A stretch of 64,000 nt of DNA from Jiangella sp. DSM 45060 (GTDB lineage Bacteria > Actinomycetota > Actinomycetes > Jiangellales > Jiangellaceae): assembly GCF_900105175.1 (NCBI RefSeq), contig NZ_LT629771.1, positions 6,096,622 to 6,160,621 on the forward strand, read 5' to 3'. Below, one piece after another: positions 28,718 to 37,771 of the stretch. Numbering within the stretch: the stretch's first letter is position 1; every line of letters starts with the position of its first letter. The notes under the pieces were generated by a model. That model did not search any database, had not been told where the DNA came from, and saw only the letters and a program-made list of their open reading frames with translations. Made by a program: the position numbers and the translations under genes.

Positions 28718-30952
28718 TCACACCATGCGAAGCGGGACTCCTGGGTTGCGGGCCTGCTCCAGCACCACCTGGGCAGGCAGCGGCTTGGACATGAAGAACC
28801 CCTGCGCGCGGTAACAGCCGAGGTCGAGCAGGGTCGTGACCGCCGCTGGGTCCTCGACGCCCTCGGCCACCGTGGTCAGGTTGAACGCCTCGGCGAGCCG
28901 GACGATCGCGGCGACGATGGCGCGATCGCCACTGCTCTCGGCCAGTGCCGAGACGAAGCTGCGGTCGATCTTCAGGATGTCGACCGGGAGCTGCTTCAGC
29001 TGGGCCAGCGAGCTGTACCCGGTGCCGAAGTCGTCGATGGCGAGCGTGACGCCCAGCCCGCGCAGCCCGTTGAGGGTGGTCTGGACGTCGTCGATCTCGC
29101 GCATCACCGTGCTCTCGGTGATCTCGATGCCCAGCTCGGCCGGCGCCAGGCCGTACCGGCTGAGCAGGGTGGCGACGAAACCGACGAAGTCGGCGCTGAT
29201 CAGCTCGCCGGCGGAGATGTTCACCCGGACCAGCGGCGGCGGCACCGGCGACGTGCGCTTCCACGCCGCGAGCTGCCGGCACGCCTCCTCGAGCACCCAG
29301 CGGCCGAGCTCGGCGGAGAGGTTGATCTCTTCGACGACGGAGATGAAGGCGTCGGCCGCGAGCAGCCCGCGCTCGGGGTGCTGCCAGCGCACCAGCGCCT
29401 CGACGCCGGTCATGCGGCCGTCGCGGAGGTCGAACTCGGGCTGGAAGTACAACCGCATCTCGTTGTGGCTGATGGCGGAGCGCAGCCGCAGCTCGAGATC
29501 GGCGCGGACGAGGAGCTTGGATCGTAGGTCGTCGTTGAACACCACTACGGAGTCTCCACCACGCTCTTTGGCCTCGAGCAGCGCGACATCGGCGTTGCCG
29601 AGCAGCTCGTCGACCGTGCTGGGCATGTCCCCGTTGACCACGACGCCGATGCTGGCGCTGCGGCTGATGGCATGGCCGCCGACCTCGAGCGGCTCGGCGA
29701 CGCGGTCGAGGATGCGCCGGGCGGCCCGCTCGGCGGCGGACGTCGACCCGATCTCGTGCAGCACGATGACGAACTCGTCGCCCGCCAGCCGTGCGACCAC
29801 GTCGTTCGGGCGGACGGAATCGCGCAGCCGTTCCGCGACGGCCTGGATGAAGCTGTCGCCGACGGTGTGGCCCAGCACGTCGTTGACCGTCTTCAACCGA
29901 TCCATGTCGGCGAAGAGCACCGCGAGCGGAGCCCGGGGATCGGCCTCCAGCACGGCGTTGAGGTCTTCGACGAACGCCCGGCGGTTCCACAGCCCGGTCA
30001 GCTCGTCGTGGTAGGCGTGGTGGTGCAGGCTCTCCTCGGCCGCGACCCGGGCGTCGAGCTGCACCAGCAGCGAGGAGATGGCGCGCAGCGCCCGAACCTC
30101 GGGGCGGGTCCAGATGCGGTCGCCGAAGTGGATGAGGCCGAGCACACCGCGGGTGGTGTCGTCGTGGATGAGCGGCACCATGGCCAGCGAGACCTCGGGC
30201 ACGCCGGAACCGGCGCGGACACGTTCCTGGTAACTGAGCTGCCCGTCGGTCGGCCGGGTGATGAACGGCTCGCGCTGGTCCTTGATCATCGCGAAGATCG
30301 GGTCGTCGGTGTCCCACGGCACGATGCCGAGCGGGTCGGGATCGGGGACGTCCACCCGGCGCGGCCATTCGTCGACCAGCACGCTGGCCTGCAGCCCCGG
30401 GTCGTTGTGCCGCAGAAAGCAGGTGTCGGCGCCGAAGTAGCGGCCCAGCTCGCTGATGACCCGGAACAGTGTCTCGGCGAGGTCGCGGGCGGTGACGCCC
30501 ATCAGCTCGGCGGCGACGTAGGTGACGAGGGCGTCGAGCCGGCCGTGCTGGTCGGTGATCTCGCCGGCCTCCATGACGGCCGTGCACAGCTGCCCGGAGA
30601 CCGACAGCAGCTCGCGGTCCTTCGCGACGTACGTGGTGCCGTCGAGCCGCACCAGGCAGATGGCGCCGACGAAGTCGCGGTAGGCCACCTTGACGGCGAG
30701 AACGGTGTAGCCGGCGGGCGTGGCGCGCTCGACCGGCTCGGTGCCGGACCGGCCGGCGACCTCGCTGGTGGCGGCGCGGATGGCGTCGCGCATGGCGGTG
30801 AGGTCTTTGCCACCGACCCCGGCCGCGGCGGCGCTTCCCCACGACACCATCGGCATGCCGCCGTCGACGGCGAGCAGGTCGGCCGAGATGGAATCCGTGG
30901 CCCGAGCCAGCGCCTCGAGGAGCGGCTGGATCGTCTCCGGGTCCATCTTCAT
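28718..30952 (-). CDS. GAF-GGDEF-EAL c-di-GMP turnover protein
   Basis: A 744-residue cytoplasmic protein. An N-terminal region (1-140) is followed by a GAF-like sensor (~155-305), a GGDEF domain (~312-470) with AGDEF at 390-394 (an active variant) and inhibitory site R381-P-N-D384, and an EAL domain (~490-740). The EAL domain keeps EAL 518-520, the NIS Asn, EITES, DDFGTGYSS, KIDRSFV, EGVED and QGF motifs. Both synthesis and hydrolysis of c-di-GMP look possible. The order GAF-GGDEF-EAL and the adjacent ThiF-nitroreductase gene match M. tuberculosis Rv1354c-Rv1355c. It overlaps that upstream gene by 4 bp. Confidence 0.92.
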   Translation of the reverse strand: MKMDPETIQPLLEALARATDSISADLLAVDGGMPMVSWGSAAAAGVGGKDLTAMRDAIRAATSEVAGRSGTEPVERATPAGYTVLAVKVAYRDFVGAICLVRLDGTTYVAKDRELLSVSGQLCTAVMEAGEITDQHGRLDALVTYVAAELMGVTARDLAETLFRVISELGRYFGADTCFLRHNDPGLQASVLVDEWPRRVDVPDPDPLGIVPWDTDDPIFAMIKDQREPFITRPTDGQLSYQERVRAGSGVPEVSLAMVPLIHDDTTRGVLGLIHFGDRIWTRPEVRALRAISSLLVQLDARVAAEESLHHHAYHDELTGLWNRRAFVEDLNAVLEADPRAPLAVLFADMDRLKTVNDVLGHTVGDSFIQAVAERLRDSVRPNDVVARLAGDEFVIVLHEIGSTSAAERAARRILDRVAEPLEVGGHAISRSASIGVVVNGDMPSTVDELLGNADVALLEAKERGGDSVVVFNDDLRSKLLVRADLELRLRSAISHNEMRLYFQPEFDLRDGRMTGVEALVRWQHPERGLLAADAFISVVEEINLSAELGRWVLEEACRQLAAWKRTSPVPPPLVRVNISAGELISADFVGFVATLLSRYGLAPAELGIEITESTVMREIDDVQTTLNGLRGLGVTLAIDDFGTGYSSLAQLKQLPVDILKIDRSFVSALAESSGDRAIVAAIVRLAEAFNLTTVAEGVEDPAAVTTLLDLGCYRAQGFFMSKPLPAQVVLEQARNPGVPLRMV

Positions 30953-33081
30953 AGATTGCTCCCTGCCTCCAGGGCGTCCCGAACGGTGCGGTCGGCAGAC
31001 AGGCGGCGGCTCCGGACGCTGACGCTAGGAGCGTATCCGATCCGCATCACCAGTGCGACGTGCCTCCGCCCAAGTCCGACGATCCCGGCGAAATCATCAC
31101 GCAGCCGGCGAAGCCGGTCGGAGTACCGCGGCGACAGCTGCTCGAAGTCGGCGTCGTCGACCCCGAAGATGAACACCGGCGACATCGGGTGGACGGCGAG
31201 GCCGAGCCGCTCGGCCTCGATCCAGACCCGCTCGACGGCCTGGCCGCCGCGCACGTAGTCGGCCGGCGACGACCCCGCGACGGAGACGACGGCCAGCCCG
31301 CCGGCGGCCTCGACGCGGTCGCGGGTGGACTCGCCGAGCGCCCGGCCGAGGTCCTGCTCGGCGAGGACGGCCATGACGTCGGACCGCCGCGCCACGCCCA
31401 GCTTCGCGAGGTCGGAGCGGTCCAGCTCGAGCGTCCGGACGTCGATGCCCCAGTCCAGCGCGTCGATGCCGGGCCAGCGCAGCTCGCGCATCATCTCGCG
31501 GTGCAGGTGCTCGGTGAGGTAACGCAGCCGGTCGGACTCGCCCAGTAGCTCAGCCAGCTCCTGCAGGTGGTCACGCCCGGTGACGAGGTGGACGTCGCCG
31601 CTCTCGGCCGCGGCGGCCGCGCGCAGCACGTCCTTCGTCTCCGGCGGCAGCGGCCTGGGCTCGTTGACGTGCCGGTTCGAGACCCGCCGCAGCATGGCGT
31701 CGTACAGGTCGGCCAGCTCCGGGTCGGAGGCGGTGCCGAAGCGCAGGCCGGCCACGTGGTCGCCGTCGGGCCGGATCTCGACGTCGCCGAGCAGCCCGTG
31801 CCGGGCGGCCGCGACCCGCGCGTTGAACAGCGCCGCGCCGATGGCGACGTAGCTGCCGCGGAACGCGACGTCCAGCGTGGACGTCTGTGTGCGATCGAGG
31901 CCGATGTCCAGCCGGCCGGGGCCGAGCGTGAACGTCCACGGCTGGGTGTTGCCGCCCGACGGCGCCAGCCGCGCGGCGTGCACGACGGCGGCACGCGGCT
32001 CGGCCGGCGCCGGTTCGGGGTCGACGACGAGGTCGGCGCCGAAGTCGGCGTCGGCGGCCGGCGGCGGATCGGCCAACTTGGACAGCACGGCTTCGAGGTC
32101 GACCCGGGCCCGACCGGACGGCAGCGGCGCGCCCAGGCCGAGCTTGCGGACCGCGGCGGCCACCGTCGCGGCGCCCAGCGTGATGTCGCCGCCCAGCTGC
32201 GGCCAGGTGTTGAGGGTCTCGTCGACCTCCGTCATCGACGCGGCCATCGACGCCGACAGCTCGCTCGGCTCGAGCACCCGCAGCACGTACGGGACCTTGT
32301 CGTGCGTCGACAGGCCCATGAGGTCGGCCGGGCGTGCGTCGCCGAGCAGCCCGTGGAACAGCGGCCGGTCCGGCTCGAGGTCGTAGCGCTCGACGTCGAG
32401 CAGGCCGCGATCGCTGGTCTCCATGACGAGCGGCAGCCGGTGCCGCCGCGCACCGTCGCGCAGGGCCAGCTTCACGTCGAAGGAGTCGCACTCCTCGACG
32501 ACGACATCCAGGCCGCCGAGGAAGTCGTCGACGGTGTCGAGGGTGAGGCCGGACGGCTCGATGCTCACCTCGATGTACGGGTCCAGCTCGGCGATGCGGC
32601 GGGCCACCACGACCGCCTTGTTCACACCGAGGTCGAAGATCGTCCCCGGAATGCGGTTGAGGTTGGACAGCTCGATCTCGTCGAAGTCGGCCAGCCGGAT
32701 GTGCCCGCAGCTGCCCTCCAGCGCCAGCGTGTGCGCGATGGCGTGGCCGACGCTGAGGCCGACGATGCCGACGGAGACGCGGCGCAGCCGCTGCTGTTCC
32801 TCGGCGGTGATCTTGTTGCGGTTGCGGTCGGTGCGCAGCCGCTGGAAGGCCTCGGGCCCGAGCAGATGCACCAGGGTGCGCCGCCACGGGTAGTAGTACC
32901 ACCGCGCCGGCTCGCCGACGATCTCCGGTGAGGGCGCGGAGAGCAACCGGGCGAGGTCACGCTGCTGCTGCTCGATGGTGTCGACGACCTGCACCGCGGA
33001 GTCGGCGCGCAGGCCGGCCAGCCGCTCGGGGTCGTCCACCAGCTCAGGGCGCCAGCTGGCCCCGTTCGTGGCATCGGTCAT
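30949..33081 (-). CDS. ThiF/E1-like adenylyltransferase fused to a nitroreductase (Rv1355c family)
   Basis: A 710-residue fusion. An unassigned N-terminal helical region (1-100) precedes an E1-like Rossmann domain (~103-330) with GIVGLSVG at 105-112, DFDEIELSNLNR at 132-143 and Lys155 of the adenylation site. A flavin nitroreductase domain (~365-700) has the FMN motif APSGGNTQPW at 373-382. No ThiF-type catalytic Cys motif is obvious. The pattern suggests adenylation of a carboxylate coupled to a flavin redox step. The family (annotated moeY in M. tuberculosis) has no proven reaction. It overlaps both neighbours by 4 bp, forming one operon with a GNAT-like and a GGDEF-EAL gene. Confidence 0.85.
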   Translation of the reverse strand: MTDATNGASWRPELVDDPERLAGLRADSAVQVVDTIEQQQRDLARLLSAPSPEIVGEPARWYYYPWRRTLVHLLGPEAFQRLRTDRNRNKITAEEQQRLRRVSVGIVGLSVGHAIAHTLALEGSCGHIRLADFDEIELSNLNRIPGTIFDLGVNKAVVVARRIAELDPYIEVSIEPSGLTLDTVDDFLGGLDVVVEECDSFDVKLALRDGARRHRLPLVMETSDRGLLDVERYDLEPDRPLFHGLLGDARPADLMGLSTHDKVPYVLRVLEPSELSASMAASMTEVDETLNTWPQLGGDITLGAATVAAAVRKLGLGAPLPSGRARVDLEAVLSKLADPPPAADADFGADLVVDPEPAPAEPRAAVVHAARLAPSGGNTQPWTFTLGPGRLDIGLDRTQTSTLDVAFRGSYVAIGAALFNARVAAARHGLLGDVEIRPDGDHVAGLRFGTASDPELADLYDAMLRRVSNRHVNEPRPLPPETKDVLRAAAAAESGDVHLVTGRDHLQELAELLGESDRLRYLTEHLHREMMRELRWPGIDALDWGIDVRTLELDRSDLAKLGVARRSDVMAVLAEQDLGRALGESTRDRVEAAGGLAVVSVAGSSPADYVRGGQAVERVWIEAERLGLAVHPMSPVFIFGVDDADFEQLSPRYSDRLRRLRDDFAGIVGLGRRHVALVMRIGYAPSVSVRSRRLSADRTVRDALEAGSNL

Positions 33082-33794
33082 CGTGTGCCCGGAACCTCCG
33101 TGCCCGTGGCGGTGCGGAACTCGCGCTCGAAGAGCCGACGCTGGTCTTCAGTGGCGCGCCCTGCCGCCGTCTTGCCGTCCCACGTCAGCATCGTCGTGCG
33201 GTAGCGGTCGTCGGGGTAGCGGGCCGGGATGATGCCGGGCAGCTCCTCGGCGCCGGAACTGGCCCAGCGCGGCGCCGCGTGCTCCGCCGCGGAGCAGTAG
33301 GCGTAGCGCACCCCGAGCAGCCGCATGGCGTGCACGAAGGCCCTCGACATGAGGTCGGCCAACGCGGACTTGTGCTCCGCCGTGGCGTCCACCCAGACAC
33401 CCTTGAGCTCGATGACGCCGTCCGGCAGCGCGGCCTCGATCCACTCACTGGCCAGCGAGGCGGACACCGGCTCACTGGCCAGCTCGCGGGGCGCGTAGGC
33501 GTCGCGCACGGAGCCCAGCGGGCCGTTGACGTAGCAGCCGGCCCAGACCTTCCCGCTGTCGTCGGACACGATCGCGAACACCGGTGCGCTGGACGTCTGC
33601 GTGGCCACGGGCAACGCCAGGGCCTGTTCGACGTGATAGCGCCGGTAGCTGGCCCGGGCGCCCTCGGCGTATGCGATCCACTGATCGAACCGCCGACTCG
33701 GCGTATAGAAGCGCATCATCATGCCTGATGCCTCGTCCCGGAAGCCGTACAGCTCGCGGGTGATGTGCGCGGCAGGCTTGAGGGGGCTGGTCAT
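33078..33794 (-). CDS. GNAT-fold acyltransferase, N-acyl amino acid synthase (FeeM)-like
   Basis: A 238-residue protein whose middle (about residues 70-210) looks like a GNAT/FeeM fold: strand VFAIVSDDSGKVWAGCYV, then VIELKGVWVDATAEHKSALADLMSRAFVHAMRLLGVRYAYCSA, a helix-strand pair typical of acyl-CoA/acyl-ACP N-acyltransferases. The assignment to FeeM-like enzymes is by pattern and not certain. The ATG at 33794 is used; an in-frame GTG at 33815 is possible. It is first in a three-gene operon (4-bp overlap with the E1-nitroreductase fusion), so it probably supplies or modifies the substrate of that enzyme. Confidence 0.6.
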   Translation of the reverse strand: MTSPLKPAAHITRELYGFRDEASGMMMRFYTPSRRFDQWIAYAEGARASYRRYHVEQALALPVATQTSSAPVFAIVSDDSGKVWAGCYVNGPLGSVRDAYAPRELASEPVSASLASEWIEAALPDGVIELKGVWVDATAEHKSALADLMSRAFVHAMRLLGVRYAYCSAAEHAAPRWASSGAEELPGIIPARYPDDRYRTTMLTWDGKTAAGRATEDQRRLFEREFRTATGTEVPGTR

Positions 33795-33876
33795 GGCATC
33801 CACACCTGGCTTCACGGCTCCGTCCGGTCTACTCGATCTGTACCGTATGCGCCGTTCACGCTATAGATGCATAATG

Positions 33877-34657: not shown

Positions 34658-35950
34658 ATGTCTACGCCGCCGGCTTCCTACCGCCACGTCTTCGGCGTGG
34701 CGGAGTTCCGCTGGCTGTGGCTGGCGCACCTGCTCTCCGTCATCGGCGACCAGCTCGCGCGCGTGGCGCTGACCCTGCTGGTGTTCGACCGGACGGAGTC
34801 GGCCGGACTGGCCGCGCTGACCTACGCGCTGACGTACCTCCCGGACCTCGTCGGCGGCGCGACGCTGGCCGGACTGGCCGACCGGTTCCCGCGGCGCGAC
34901 GTCATGGTGGCCGCCGACCTCGCGCGGGCGGCACTGGTGGCGGCCATGGCGATCCCCGGCGTCCCACTGGCCGCGCAGGTGTGCCTGCTGGCCGTGGTGC
35001 AGCTGCTGGCGGCGCCGTTCTCGGCCGCGCGACAGGCGGCGCTGCCGGACATCCTGAGCGGCGACCGGCTGGCCCTCGGGCTCGGCGTCTTCTCCATGAC
35101 CTACCAGGCGGCGCTCGTCGTCGGCTTCGGCGCCGGCGCGGCGCTCGTCGCGGGGCTGGGCGCACCCACCGCCCTGCTGGTCGACGCGGTGACGTTCCTG
35201 CTGTCGGCGGTGCTGATCGCGCGCGGTATGGGCCCGCACCGTCCCGTCGCGCCGCCGCCGGGCCCGGCGCCGGGCACCCAGGCGCCGCCCGGCCAGTGGG
35301 CCACCGTCCGGGCCGGCTGGCGCGTGGTCGTCGGCGACCCGCGGCTGCTGACCCTGCTCGCGATTGCCTGCTGTTCGGGGTTCTACGTGGTGCCGGAGGG
35401 GCTCGCGGTGCCGTTCGCGGCCGAGATCGACGCCGGTTCCTCCGGCGTCGGCTGGCTGCTCGTCGCCAACCCCGTGGGGACGGTCGTCGGCATGCTGGTG
35501 CTGGGCCGGCTCCGGCCGGAGCGCCGGCTCGCGCTGATGGGACCGCTCGCGGTCGCGAGCAGCCTGGTGCTGATCCCCACCGGGCTGCTGCCCGGCCTGA
35601 CCCTCTCGGTCGTGCTGTGGACCGTGAGCGGGGCGTGCTCCGCCCACGACATGGTCGTCCAGGCCGCCTACGTCCAGTCGGTGCCCGCACACCGCCGAGG
35701 CCAGGCGGTCGGGCTCGCGATCGCCGCCCTGCGGGCAGCGCAAGGCCTCGCCATCGTCGCCGCCGGCGTCCTGGCCCAGTTCCTCTCACCGTCGACGATC
35801 ATCCTCGTCGCGGCGATCGTGGGCACCCTGGCCGCCGGCGCCGCATGGCACCGCTGGTCCCGCTTGGCCTCGCCCCGCGCCCATCCACCACCCCAGGGCG
35901 AAGCCGGCAGTCTCCTCGACCGGTCTCGAACGGCCGGAAACACACCATGA
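34658..35950 (+). CDS. MFS exporter (12-helix, macrolide-efflux-like)
   Basis: A 430-residue transporter beginning YRHVFGVAEFRWLWLAHLLSVIGDQLARVALTLLVFDRT. This N-terminus resembles MFS_3/macrolide-efflux-type proteins (WLWxGxxxSxxGDxxxxxA), with about twelve helices and a basic GLADRFPRRDVMV loop after helix 2. The preceding frame is open to 34280, but the ATG at 34658 starts just before the conserved region; only a weak CGGAA lies upstream. Its 3' end is convergent with the MRDNTWT micro-ORF array, 10 bp away. Export of the array's product is possible but not shown. Confidence 0.82.
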   Translation: MSTPPASYRHVFGVAEFRWLWLAHLLSVIGDQLARVALTLLVFDRTESAGLAALTYALTYLPDLVGGATLAGLADRFPRRDVMVAADLARAALVAAMAIPGVPLAAQVCLLAVVQLLAAPFSAARQAALPDILSGDRLALGLGVFSMTYQAALVVGFGAGAALVAGLGAPTALLVDAVTFLLSAVLIARGMGPHRPVAPPPGPAPGTQAPPGQWATVRAGWRVVVGDPRLLTLLAIACCSGFYVVPEGLAVPFAAEIDAGSSGVGWLLVANPVGTVVGMLVLGRLRPERRLALMGPLAVASSLVLIPTGLLPGLTLSVVLWTVSGACSAHDMVVQAAYVQSVPAHRRGQAVGLAIAALRAAQGLAIVAAGVLAQFLSPSTIILVAAIVGTLAAGAAWHRWSRLASPRAHPPPQGEAGSLLDRSRTAGNTP

Positions 35951-35960
35951 CTCGTCGAGG

Positions 35961-35984
35961 TCAGGTCCAGGTGTTGTCGCGCAT
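35961..35984 (-). CDS. Micro-ORF 4, heptapeptide MRDNTWT
   Basis: Eight codons, ATG to TGA, encode MRDNTWT. GGAGGGAG at 35992-35999 gives a Shine-Dalgarno 7 nt from the ATG. The 64-bp distance from unit 3 is not a multiple of three, so this unit cannot be read in the same frame as the others and needs its own start. Last unit of the array, 10 bp from the convergent MFS stop. Confidence 0.6.
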   Translation of the reverse strand: MRDNTWT

Positions 35985-36024
35985 GGCACTACTCCCTCCG
36001 CGTCGTCGTTGTCCGAGTGACCCG

Positions 36025-36048
36025 TCAGGTCCAGGTGTTGTCGCGCAT
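36025..36048 (-). CDS. Micro-ORF 3, heptapeptide MRDNTWT
   Basis: The same 24-nt frame as unit 4 with an identical upstream region: GGAGGGAG at 36056-36063, 7 nt from the ATG. The spacer is almost identical to that of unit 4, so this pair arose by recent duplication. Confidence 0.6.
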   Translation of the reverse strand: MRDNTWT

Positions 36049-36087
36049 GGCACTACTCCCTCCGCGTCGTCGTTGTCCGAGTGACCG

Positions 36088-36111
36088 TCAGGTCCAGGTG
36101 TTGTCGCGCAT
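36088..36111 (-). CDS. Micro-ORF 2, heptapeptide MRDNTWT
   Basis: The frame is identical at DNA level to units 3 and 4 but has a different upstream spacer, with its own ribosome site GAGGAG at 36118-36123, 6 nt before the ATG. Conservation of the frame against a diverged spacer argues for coding function. Confidence 0.6.
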   Translation of the reverse strand: MRDNTWT

Positions 36112-36143
36112 GGCCCGCTCCTCTTCTGCTCGTATCGGTCGTG

Positions 36144-36159
36144 GCCGGGTCGTCCCGGC
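36144..36159 (-). other. Hairpin directly after micro-ORF 1
   Basis: GCCGGG-N4-CCCGGC immediately follows the TGA of unit 1 on the minus strand. It could be a weak attenuator or an mRNA-stabilising stem; units 2-4 lack it. Confidence 0.4.
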
Positions 36160-36183
36160 TCAGGTCCAGGTGTTGTCACGCAT
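36160..36183 (-). CDS. Micro-ORF 1, heptapeptide MRDNTWT
   Basis: First unit on the minus strand. It encodes the same MRDNTWT with one synonymous change (CGT for Arg). The ribosome site GGGGAGG at 36192-36198 is the strongest of the four. It is also in frame with a longer open frame back to a GTG at 36348 (62 residues, very basic), but that frame has no ribosome site, so the short ATG-initiated form is preferred. Confidence 0.6.
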   Translation of the reverse strand: MRDNTWT

Positions 36184-36331
36184 GGCGCTCACCTCCCCGT
36201 CGAGTAGCAGGGCAGCCTTCGGCACCGCGTCGTCGCACACCGCGCGACCCCTCCTCTCGCAGCGCCGCGCACGCCTGAATCGGAGTGCGGCGAAACGCCC
36301 CATATGCGCTCTCATTGTTGCCGACGCTCCA

Positions 36332-36361
36332 GCGACAGAACGTCCCACTTTCAGTTACTAT
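36332..36361 (+). promoter_or_regulatory. Possible promoter of the diguanylate cyclase gene
   Basis: GCGACA (-35-like) at 36332-36337, an 18-bp spacer and TACTAT (-10) at 36356-36361, 46 nt before the GTG at 36407. The divergent micro-ORF array begins 148 bp to the left. Confidence 0.4.
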
Positions 36362-36406
36362 GTGCCCACTCTGCGGGACCCCAGCGAACTGCGCAGGTGA
36401 GAGCGA

Positions 36407-37771
36407 GTGCACGGCATGATTCGGCGAACTCGGAGCTGGTTCGTCGGCTGGGCGCTCTGGCAGGCGCCGCCGCCTGTGCGCGTGCTCGTCGTGCTGGCGT
36501 GCACGGTCGCCGCCGGCACGAGCATCGCGACCGCGTTCCCGTTCCCGATCACCGGTTCCGACGTCGCCCGGTTCAGCGTGCTGGCGGTCTGTGCCGTGGT
36601 CTCGGTCGAACTCACCCGGCACATCGAACGTCGCCGGGTCTACGGCCACAGCAGTTCGGTCGCCTACATCGACACGAAGGCGGTCTGGAGCTTCGCCGCC
36701 GTCATCGTCCTGCCGCCGGTGTTCGCCACGGCGATGGTCATCCTGACCTACCTGCTGACCTGGACCCGCGTTCAGCACGAGCGTTCGGGCGGTCTGGTCT
36801 ACCGCTGGTTGTTCTCGGGCGCGACGGTGCTGTGCGGCACCCAGGCCGCGGTCGCCGTCCTGGCCCTCGGCATGCACGACTACCCCGGCGCGCCGGCCAC
36901 GTCCGGGCTGGCCGGGCTCTCCGACCTCGGCGTCATCACACTCGCCGCGGTGCTGCGATGGGCCATCAACGTCGCCCTCGTGATGGTGGCGATCGCCCTC
37001 AGCAAGCCGAACATCGAGGTGCGCGAGCTGTTCTCGAACTTCGGTGAGCAGATGCTCGAGGCCGGTGCGATGGGCCTCGGGCTGGTCGCCGCCACGGTAG
37101 TCGTGACCAACCCGTTCGTCATGCCGGGCATCGTCGTCGCCATCGTCGCGCTGCACCGCGGCATCCTGGTCAACCAGTACCAGCAGGCGTCGCGCACCGA
37201 TGCGAAGACCGGGCTGTCGACCGCCGGGTGGTGGCACGACTTCGCCGACCAGGCGCTCGTCCGGGCCCGCGACCACGGCGCGACCCTGGGTCTGCTGATC
37301 GTCGACCTCGACCACTTCAAGCGGCTCAACGACACGTTCGGGCACCCGCACGGCGACCGCGTGCTCAAGGCGGTGGCGGAAGAGCTGATCGCGGAGATCC
37401 GCAACGAGGACGCCTGCGGCCGGTGGGGCGGCGAGGAGTTCGTCGTGGTGCTGCCCGACGTCGGCGACCACCGCAACCTGTACAACGTGGCGCAGCGCAT
37501 CCGACGGCGCATCGAGTCCGTCGCTGTCGAGCCGCCGGCGCACCTCGCCGACGCCGGCGACCCCGCGTTCACGGCGTCGGTCGGTGGCGCCATCTACCCG
37601 TCGCCGGGCGTCGGCAACCTCGACGAACTGCTGCTGGCCGCCGACACCGCGCTCTACGCGGCCAAGAACGGCGGCCGCAACACGGTCCGGCTCAGCGAGC
37701 TCGACCTCCCGGCCGCCCCGGTCCGGCCGACCCTCTCGCCGTCGGCGGAACCGCCGTCGTCGGCCGGCTGA
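36407..37771 (+). CDS. Membrane-bound diguanylate cyclase (GGDEF)
   Basis: A 454-residue protein. An integral membrane sensor with about six helices (residues ~24-255) precedes a GGDEF domain (~260-435) with the active site GGEEF at 341-345, LIVDLDHFKRLND metal-binding loop and inhibitory site R332-N-E-D335. It should make c-di-GMP in response to an unidentified membrane or envelope signal. The start is the GTG at 36407 with AGGTGAG 5 nt upstream. It is divergent from the micro-ORF array and lies 8 kb from bldD and the GGDEF-EAL gene. Confidence 0.9.
   Translation: MHGMIRRTRSWFVGWALWQAPPPVRVLVVLACTVAAGTSIATAFPFPITGSDVARFSVLAVCAVVSVELTRHIERRRVYGHSSSVAYIDTKAVWSFAAVIVLPPVFATAMVILTYLLTWTRVQHERSGGLVYRWLFSGATVLCGTQAAVAVLALGMHDYPGAPATSGLAGLSDLGVITLAAVLRWAINVALVMVAIALSKPNIEVRELFSNFGEQMLEAGAMGLGLVAATVVVTNPFVMPGIVVAIVALHRGILVNQYQQASRTDAKTGLSTAGWWHDFADQALVRARDHGATLGLLIVDLDHFKRLNDTFGHPHGDRVLKAVAEELIAEIRNEDACGRWGGEEFVVVLPDVGDHRNLYNVAQRIRRRIESVAVEPPAHLADAGDPAFTASVGGAIYPSPGVGNLDELLLAADTALYAAKNGGRNTVRLSELDLPAAPVRPTLSPSAEPPSSAG

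Follow-up and report, generated by a model that had tools for sequence, protein, structure and literature searches.

The window, by which we mean the whole 64,000-nucleotide stretch of Jiangella sp. DSM 45060 DNA that was analysed, contains a tandem array of four 24-nucleotide reading frames on its minus strand, each running from ATG to TGA and each encoding the heptapeptide MRDNTWT. The array is placed between a divergent gene for a membrane diguanylate cyclase and a convergent gene for an MFS transporter, in the following arrangement:

34658..35950, plus strand: MFS transporter gene, convergent, 430 aa (PF07690, 1.2e-30; TIGR00900)
35961..35984, minus strand: micro-gene 4, MRDNTWT
36025..36048, minus strand: micro-gene 3, MRDNTWT
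36088..36111, minus strand: micro-gene 2, MRDNTWT
36160..36183, minus strand: micro-gene 1, ATG CGT GAC AAC ACC TGG ACC TGA = MRDNTWT
36192..36198, minus strand: ribosome-binding site of micro-gene 1, GGGGAGG
36312..36363, minus strand: AT-rich boxes (ACATAGTA, ACAATGA) in the intergenic region between the GGDEF gene and the array, with similar boxes 5' of other arrays
36407..37771, plus strand: membrane diguanylate cyclase gene, divergent, starting at GTG 36407 or ATG 36416

The four frames share the consensus ATG-CGY-GAC-AAC-ACC-TGG-ACC-TGA. Their positions, strand and product are as originally predicted, and the only difference among the copies is indeed a synonymous Arg codon, CGT or CGC. 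Each copy also has the ribosome site of its own that had been claimed for it, a purine-rich stretch about 6-8 nt 5' of the ATG (GGGGAGG, AGAGGAG, GGAGGGAG and GGAGGGAG). The start-to-start spacings, when re-measured, were again 72, 63 and 64, and the last copy is therefore out of frame with the rest. With up to three mismatches allowed, the window has four matches to the MRDNTWT pattern, and 100 dinucleotide shuffles have no match at all; with no mismatch, the codon pattern occurs four times in the whole 7.49-Mb genome, every time in this array. The spacers preceding copies 3 and 4 are almost the same, and the array thus arose in part by recent duplication, which does not in itself prove function. 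Coding by the four micro-genes is plain, and a translation yield from them may be presumed.

The AT-rich boxes at 36312..36363 are possibly the promoter of the array. Boxes GGACAATAGG / GACAATGA / ACATAGTA recur 5' of the first micro-gene in many arrays of the window's own family (f1, 22 genomes), and GTAACACAATAGTTGC lies 5' of several micro-genes of family f17, being present too at four loci where no micro-gene was seen (L128, L130, L177 and L184); such recurring boxes are possibly a shared promoter or operator. A sigma-70 and terminator scan of 35900-36450 gave no match, a result that says little for an actinobacterial host.

The divergent gene encodes a membrane sensor of about 258 aa followed by a GGDEF domain (Pfam PF00990, E 2e-36), whose motif RNEDACGRWGGEEF contains GGEEF with RxxD five residues earlier. 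RxxD is the feedback site of diguanylate cyclases, and in possessing both GG(D/E)EF and RxxD the window protein bears the sequence marks of an active enzyme. Among 27 array-linked GGDEF proteins, GGEEF is intact in 26 (the remaining one, at L093, is cut), and RxxD stands five residues before it in 25 (L044 differs). The product of the convergent gene, for which the domain search query began 9 codons into the frame, resembles MFS proteins of drug-efflux types; it is a candidate peptide exporter in f1, or may be a regulated target instead.

How widely is this arrangement distributed? The tandem search pattern fixed only ATG-CGN-G and TGG, thus imposing Arg as the second residue and Trp as the sixth, and detected arrays in 17 of the 393 genomes of the class, namely 16 of the 22 f1 genomes and one genome of family f10 (G030, with four arrays). 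The reversed pattern, used as a control, matched in 5 of 393 genomes, and 9 of the 14 control matches fell in a single genome. The set examined comprises 29 arrays and 131 copies, nearly all of 7-8 codons, with arrays of 2-13 micro-genes in related species. MRDNTWT accounts for 33 copies, MRGNSWD for 24, MRDTTWS for 21, MRANSWD for 10 and MRDNNWN for 8, and 18 rarer forms, including the 8-residue MRDNKWSR and MRDNHWTP, make up the rest; 22 of the 29 arrays encode a single peptide and seven are mixed. The exact heptapeptide pattern was found in five copies in Jiangella rhizosphaerae, eight in Jiangella ureilytica and four in Phytoactinopolyspora halotolerans (one genome per species). A single exact match in Arthrobacter rhombi (L006), without a ribosome site and apparently inside a longer coding frame, was attributed to chance; two matches in genome G013, again lacking a ribosome site and resembling coding sequence, were rejected, and most two-mismatch matches outside f1 are solitary and were treated as noise. 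The Jiangella genome itself carries a second array (contig G000:C1, about 1,482,372-1,482,694; L081, 7873-8195), in which MRGNSWD is encoded five times, once from a GTG start and with both AGC and TCC as Ser codons, and which has GGDEF and MFS neighbours of its own.

The surroundings of the arrays are as constant as their contents. Beside 28 of the 29 arrays lies a divergent sensor-GGDEF gene, identified by neighbour clustering at 27 of them and by tblastn at one (L042); at the sole exception, L090, a contig end cuts the locus. A convergent MFS gene lies near 24 of the 29; at L041, L044 and L092 the contig ends first, and for L090 and L093 none was found by tblastn or clustering. When all 29 loci were clustered, membrane-GGDEF and MFS were the two gene families to recur across differing wider contexts. 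Flanked by a divergent and usually a convergent gene, the array constitutes its own transcription unit. The sensor occurs in 18 of the 22 f1 genomes and micro-genes occur in those same 18 (16 by the tandem pattern, G020 and G021 by further inspection); no sensor and no tandem array was found in the remaining four genomes, two of which are only 75-81% complete. The array of G021 (L157) has four units, each of two fused repeats, MRDTNWVLRDTNWSW, between the sensor-GGDEF gene and the MFS gene, and a second sensor gene follows about 0.7 kb past the latter. Sensor matches number 6 in G030, 10 in G399 and 9 in G401, and hence many parallel systems in these genomes; G030 has at least five, with differing peptides. 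The original prediction had missed both the divergent GGDEF and convergent MFS genes as constant partners and the extent of the family far beyond one genome. The search for homologues with codon and flank analysis that it proposed revealed the constant divergent GGDEF gene and, as described below, selection on the peptide.

Codons 2 (Arg) and 6 (Trp), being set by the search rule, were left out of the selection test, and the presence of Trp in 131 of 131 copies was not used as evidence because the rule imposes it. At the free codons (3, 4, 5 and 7), the distinct extra codons within arrays are synonymous in 26 cases and non-synonymous in nine, where random single changes would be synonymous in 20% (excess p 8e-12; 29 arrays, 131 copies); this count replaces one over all codons, including those fixed by the rule, of 39 to 10. 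In five arrays Ser is encoded by both AGC and TCC, a swap that requires two changes. Mean spacer identity is 0.59-0.78 in 13 of the 21 arrays having enough spacers, compared with 0.49 for shuffled spacers, and 0.85-1.0 in the remaining eight, which resemble recent duplications. Taken together, the mainly synonymous codon changes, the Ser swaps and the diverging spacers show that selection acts on the peptide: it is the encoded peptide that is kept. The comparison of codon with spacer change, by which the original prediction was to stand or fall, thus went in its favour. Without the Trp rule, 28 more micro-frames with a ribosome site were found inside the array spans, about two thirds of them in-frame GTG extensions of accepted copies and the rest in other frames; units that had lost Trp were not seen inside these spans. 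In one array, L036, a single gap of 126 may mark a decayed unit.

A search led by the sensor alone extends the association beyond arrays. Of 296 genomes of the class, 61 contained a match to the profile of the sensor domain (residues 1-258 in the window protein), and a wider sensor profile matched 182 of 200 genomes of f17; in a phylum-wide sample, the profile matched one genome of 296, its own. A 72.7% identical sensor in Nonomuraea gerenzanensis, where the micro-gene encodes MVRGVTWT, suggests that family f17 is Streptosporangiaceae or a close relative. Micro-genes were called by a rule demanding a ribosome site, a length of 6-9 residues with Trp in one of the last four positions, and a location on the divergent strand upstream of the sensor. 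In the first set outside f1, 17 of 32 loci had such a gene. This set omits seven f1 entries and is not blind, since the rule was fixed with knowledge of the arrays in f1 and of an earlier, looser list. The corresponding figures are 0 of 32 for the opposite strand, 22 of 4986 for random stretches, 27 of 3200 for shuffles and 0 of 117 for the divergent upstreams of other genes at these loci. A second set, mostly f17 and seen in a looser scan before the rule was applied, gave 31 of 45 loci (other strand, 0 of 45; random stretches, 14 of 2531); L166 in this set and L126 in the first are one gene. With the Trp rule dropped, 63 of the 68 micro-frames of 6-9 codons with a ribosome site at 76 loci still have Trp among the last four residues, as do 25 of 340 from random stretches and 0 of 8 from the opposite strand; the Trp near the end was therefore not put in by the rule. 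The peptides found in this way, mostly from single-copy genes, include MLRGVTWT, MVRGVTWT, MARGVVWT, MSSGVQWI, MASVVQWG, MRHTSWS, MRDVHWG, MRNIIWG and MRGWKWS. The linkage of micro-genes to the sensor-GGDEF gene holds in several families.

The same rule leaves 15 of 32 sensor genes in the first set and 14 of 45 in the second without a micro-gene. Three were missed by the rule, at L135 (MAAGIQWV), L152 (fused, MREIRWTREIRWTRA) and L195 (MRGVIWS); at most of the other no-match sensor loci, not all of them inspected by eye, no micro-gene was seen. At L147 and L153, both of family f18, the micro-genes look broken, the Trp codon being TGA in one (MRNII followed by the stop) and the frame being changed in the other. 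Sensors without a micro-gene and these broken loci indicate that the pair is separable.

What kind of sensor is it? MASE9 is an N-terminal membrane sensor fused to GGDEF. The sensor part of the window protein has no match in Pfam, MASE9 (PF20972) included, and PF20972 matched none of 20 listed f1 genomes. Of 43 aligned sensors, 13 show weak matches to it (best E 3.4e-5), and distant sensors from genomes G057 and G115 pass its cut-off. These weak and distant matches make the sensor a remote MASE9 relative. Two AlphaFold2 models, built from different first sequences with overlapping alignments, have pLDDT values of 91.8 and 89.7 and a pTM of 0.88 each. For the first model, ECF-transporter S components or CbiM fill the top 12 rows of structural matches (best Z 10.9, 3.5 Å over 153 aligned residues; next row 6.0), as they do the top 17 rows for the second, of which row 2 is titled only transition metal transporter (best Z 13.2, 2.9 Å over 154 aligned residues; next 7.4); for helical folds, the comparison tool warns that a Z under about 13 may mean a common arrangement only. 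Foldseek returned no match to the first model at E < 0.001, and two short matches in a PDB sequence search with the sensor profile (E 0.39 and 0.89) were discarded as chance. A resemblance of the sensor to the ligand-binding S components of ECF transporters is predicted, as a statement about the fold and no proof of a ligand. Known S components bind small ligands from outside.

Do the peptide and the sensor vary together? Over 60 loci (74, less 8 short of sequence and 6 near-duplicates), peptide distance follows sensor distance with GGDEF distance removed (partial r 0.31; 0 of 2000 permutations), as judged by a Mantel test from which shared ancestry is not fully removed, and shows no relation to GGDEF distance with sensor distance removed (r -0.002). 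This co-variation favours the sensor as the peptide's partner; part of the correlation can be accounted for by linkage, by shared ancestry and by the greater variability of the sensor. The outer loops, placed from helix order and charges, showed no extra tracking of the peptide relative to the remaining sensor (r 0.006, 60 loci), a null result that points to no peptide site on the sensor.

Since the micro-gene family adjoins a membrane c-di-GMP enzyme in many actinobacteria, the micro-peptide is probably the dedicated signal of that adjoining c-di-GMP-making enzyme, and we lean towards reading the array as a multi-copy gene for a leaderless heptapeptide signal to a membrane c-di-GMP synthase. 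Each seven-codon frame would be translated separately to give (formyl-)MRDNTWT, a product from which no leader has to be cleaved. This peptide would then exit the cell, in this lineage probably via the convergent MFS transporter, and bind, from outside, the S component-like membrane sensor of the divergently encoded diguanylate cyclase, where binding would change c-di-GMP synthesis by the GGDEF domain. Tandem duplication would raise peptide output, and paralogous systems in one genome, here MRDNTWT and MRGNSWD, would provide separate peptide codes. In this chain, we infer export, binding and the effect on c-di-GMP. Of the three roles offered in the original prediction, the secreted signal peptide fits best, and the RiPP precursor and the regulatory leader are unsupported, for the reasons given below.

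The main rival is an intracellular one, in which an unexported micro-peptide acts as a feedback micro-protein, binding and tuning the diguanylate cyclase, or the membrane domain of that enzyme, on the cytoplasmic side. It accounts for linkage and selection equally well, and seven residues leave no room for a signal sequence. Moreover, outside f1 an MFS gene was found close to no more than 2 of the 32 sensor loci (L139 and L140, with a partial one in L134, in stretches of up to about 10 kb); MFS being so scarce there, export would need another route, a real gap in the signalling model. Against the rival stand the MFS gene kept at 24 of the 29 arrays, the predicted S-component fold, whose known members bind their ligands on the outer side, and the separate ribosome sites of the copies, which suggest high output. 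We consider this rival possible and rather unlikely.

Less probable still, in our estimation, is that the array encodes a minimal RiPP or antimicrobial precursor in the manner of biarylitides or microcin C, to be modified by enzymes from nearby or distant genes and exported by the MFS protein. Seven-codon precursors are known, as described for microcin C (PMC6495379), and the drug-efflux likeness of the MFS protein and the presence of a ThiF-protein gene near 12 of the 29 array loci, about 3 kb off in the window, would suit such a role. All 12 of these ThiF loci are a single syntenic genus locus, no other context has the gene, and the microcin C idea that the window's ThiF enzyme and MFS gene had raised was dropped. 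In tests for motifs in called frames, the P450 haem motif occurred at one of the 29 array loci, about 4 kb away, and CxxxCxxC, a radical SAM-like motif (rSAM-like), likewise at one; the window locus has no haem motif, in keeping with the earlier statement that no P450 is adjacent, and a P450-dependent RiPP was rejected as well. With no recurring modifying enzyme, a RiPP precursor becomes less likely; in addition, Asn is C-terminal in only 9 of 131 copies and the constant partner is a signalling enzyme. As for the ThiF gene of the window, it encodes a ThiF-nitroreductase protein (30949-33081) within a group at 28718-33815, followed by a GAF-GGDEF-EAL protein (28718-30952) and preceded by a 245-aa protein (33078-33815), a layout resembling Rv1355c-Rv1354c of mycobacteria.

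A translated regulatory element, in which translation of the tiny frames regulates a neighbouring RNA through stalling or tRNA titration, is very improbable. Very short frames with a rare residue such as Trp are typical of attenuators, which act on a co-directional gene downstream; here, both in the window and at 24 of the 29 arrays, the gene that follows is convergent, and with divergent and convergent genes flanking the array the originally suggested cis-acting leader falls away (the downstream exception, L093, is without an MFS gene). The array RNA folds no more stably than its shuffles would suggest (z 0.77) and has no Rfam match at gathering score, so that a leader or structured RNA was rejected on these counts too, and the peptides have one Trp only, with residues 3-5 and 7 varying between species. 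Finally, a non-coding repeat or DNA-binding array with an open frame by chance, to which tandem duplication and spacers identical in L031 and nearly so in several others might point, can be set aside in view of the synonymous excess (26 to 9), the AGC/TCC swaps and the single-copy homologues elsewhere with a similar peptide pattern and ribosome site.

What would follow from a peptide signal to a membrane diguanylate cyclase? Such a peptide would set c-di-GMP with neither a two-component system nor a cytosolic receptor involved. To our knowledge, the input ligands of actinobacterial c-di-GMP signalling are mostly unknown, and the micro-genes would supply a genetically encoded family of them, cheap to synthesise and testable at once. 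Arrays that mostly encode one peptide each and differ between many species would amount to a natural series of ligand-receptor variants. The work also adds a large family of 7-8-codon genes that ordinary gene finders skip, and a search route for similar ones, through micro-frames with ribosome sites in the divergent upstream regions of orphan receptors. Searches of open-access PMC papers yielded no mention of the seven peptides looked for and, among the papers listed, no report of such a gene pair, and we rate the gene family and its partner as new in kind. Whether they represent a new class of signalling pair across several families of Actinomycetes, a pheromone from a seven-codon gene with a membrane diguanylate cyclase bearing an S component-like sensor, is to our mind evenly poised; should the function be ordinary peptide signalling, the novelty would lie in the receptor class.

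How does the system compare with those already described? MASE9-GGDEF proteins (PF20972) have the same layout of sensor and GGDEF domain, with the differences that the window sensor is unmatched by the family and that the four classical MASE9 loci inspected have no micro-gene. The microcin C cluster of E. coli includes an MFS exporter, and microcin C-type precursors end in Asn. Its mccA is a 7-codon gene for the peptide MRTGNAN, and frames of its size were found in vitro to be translated repeatedly by one ribosome without release (PMC6495379). A seven-residue product, in most members, and the MR- start are shared with the peptides here; on the other hand, none of the window's copies is among the nine with a C-terminal Asn, no MccB-like gene is found across the family, the micro-genes occur in arrays, and the partner is a sensor-GGDEF protein and not an antibiotic cluster. 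Biarylitides have very short precursor genes and a P450-made crosslink as their defining feature (PMC12951456); the very short genes are common to both, and no P450 recurs here.

The closest parallel is with the leaderless communication peptide (LCP)/RopB quorum-sensing systems of Firmicutes, in which an 8-9-residue peptide is encoded by a micro-gene with its own ribosome site, divergent from the receptor gene; several such systems have a convergent gene beyond the micro-gene, as target, and their peptide codes differ by species (PMC10518010). Leaderless micro-genes with ribosome sites of their own and a divergent neighbour are found here likewise (28 of 29 arrays), the neighbour being the putative receptor, and so are the order of receptor, divergent micro-gene and convergent gene and the distinct peptide codes. 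The LCP receptor is the cytosolic regulator RopB, whereas here it would be a membrane diguanylate cyclase; LCPs are aliphatic or aromatic, whereas these peptides are polar with one Trp; and the present family belongs to another phylum and forms arrays of up to 13 copies. Since a tested defining feature of each is absent, the MRDNTWT system falls outside the LCP/RopB, microcin C and biarylitide groups. By analogy, it would work most like an LCP system, with an unrelated receptor.
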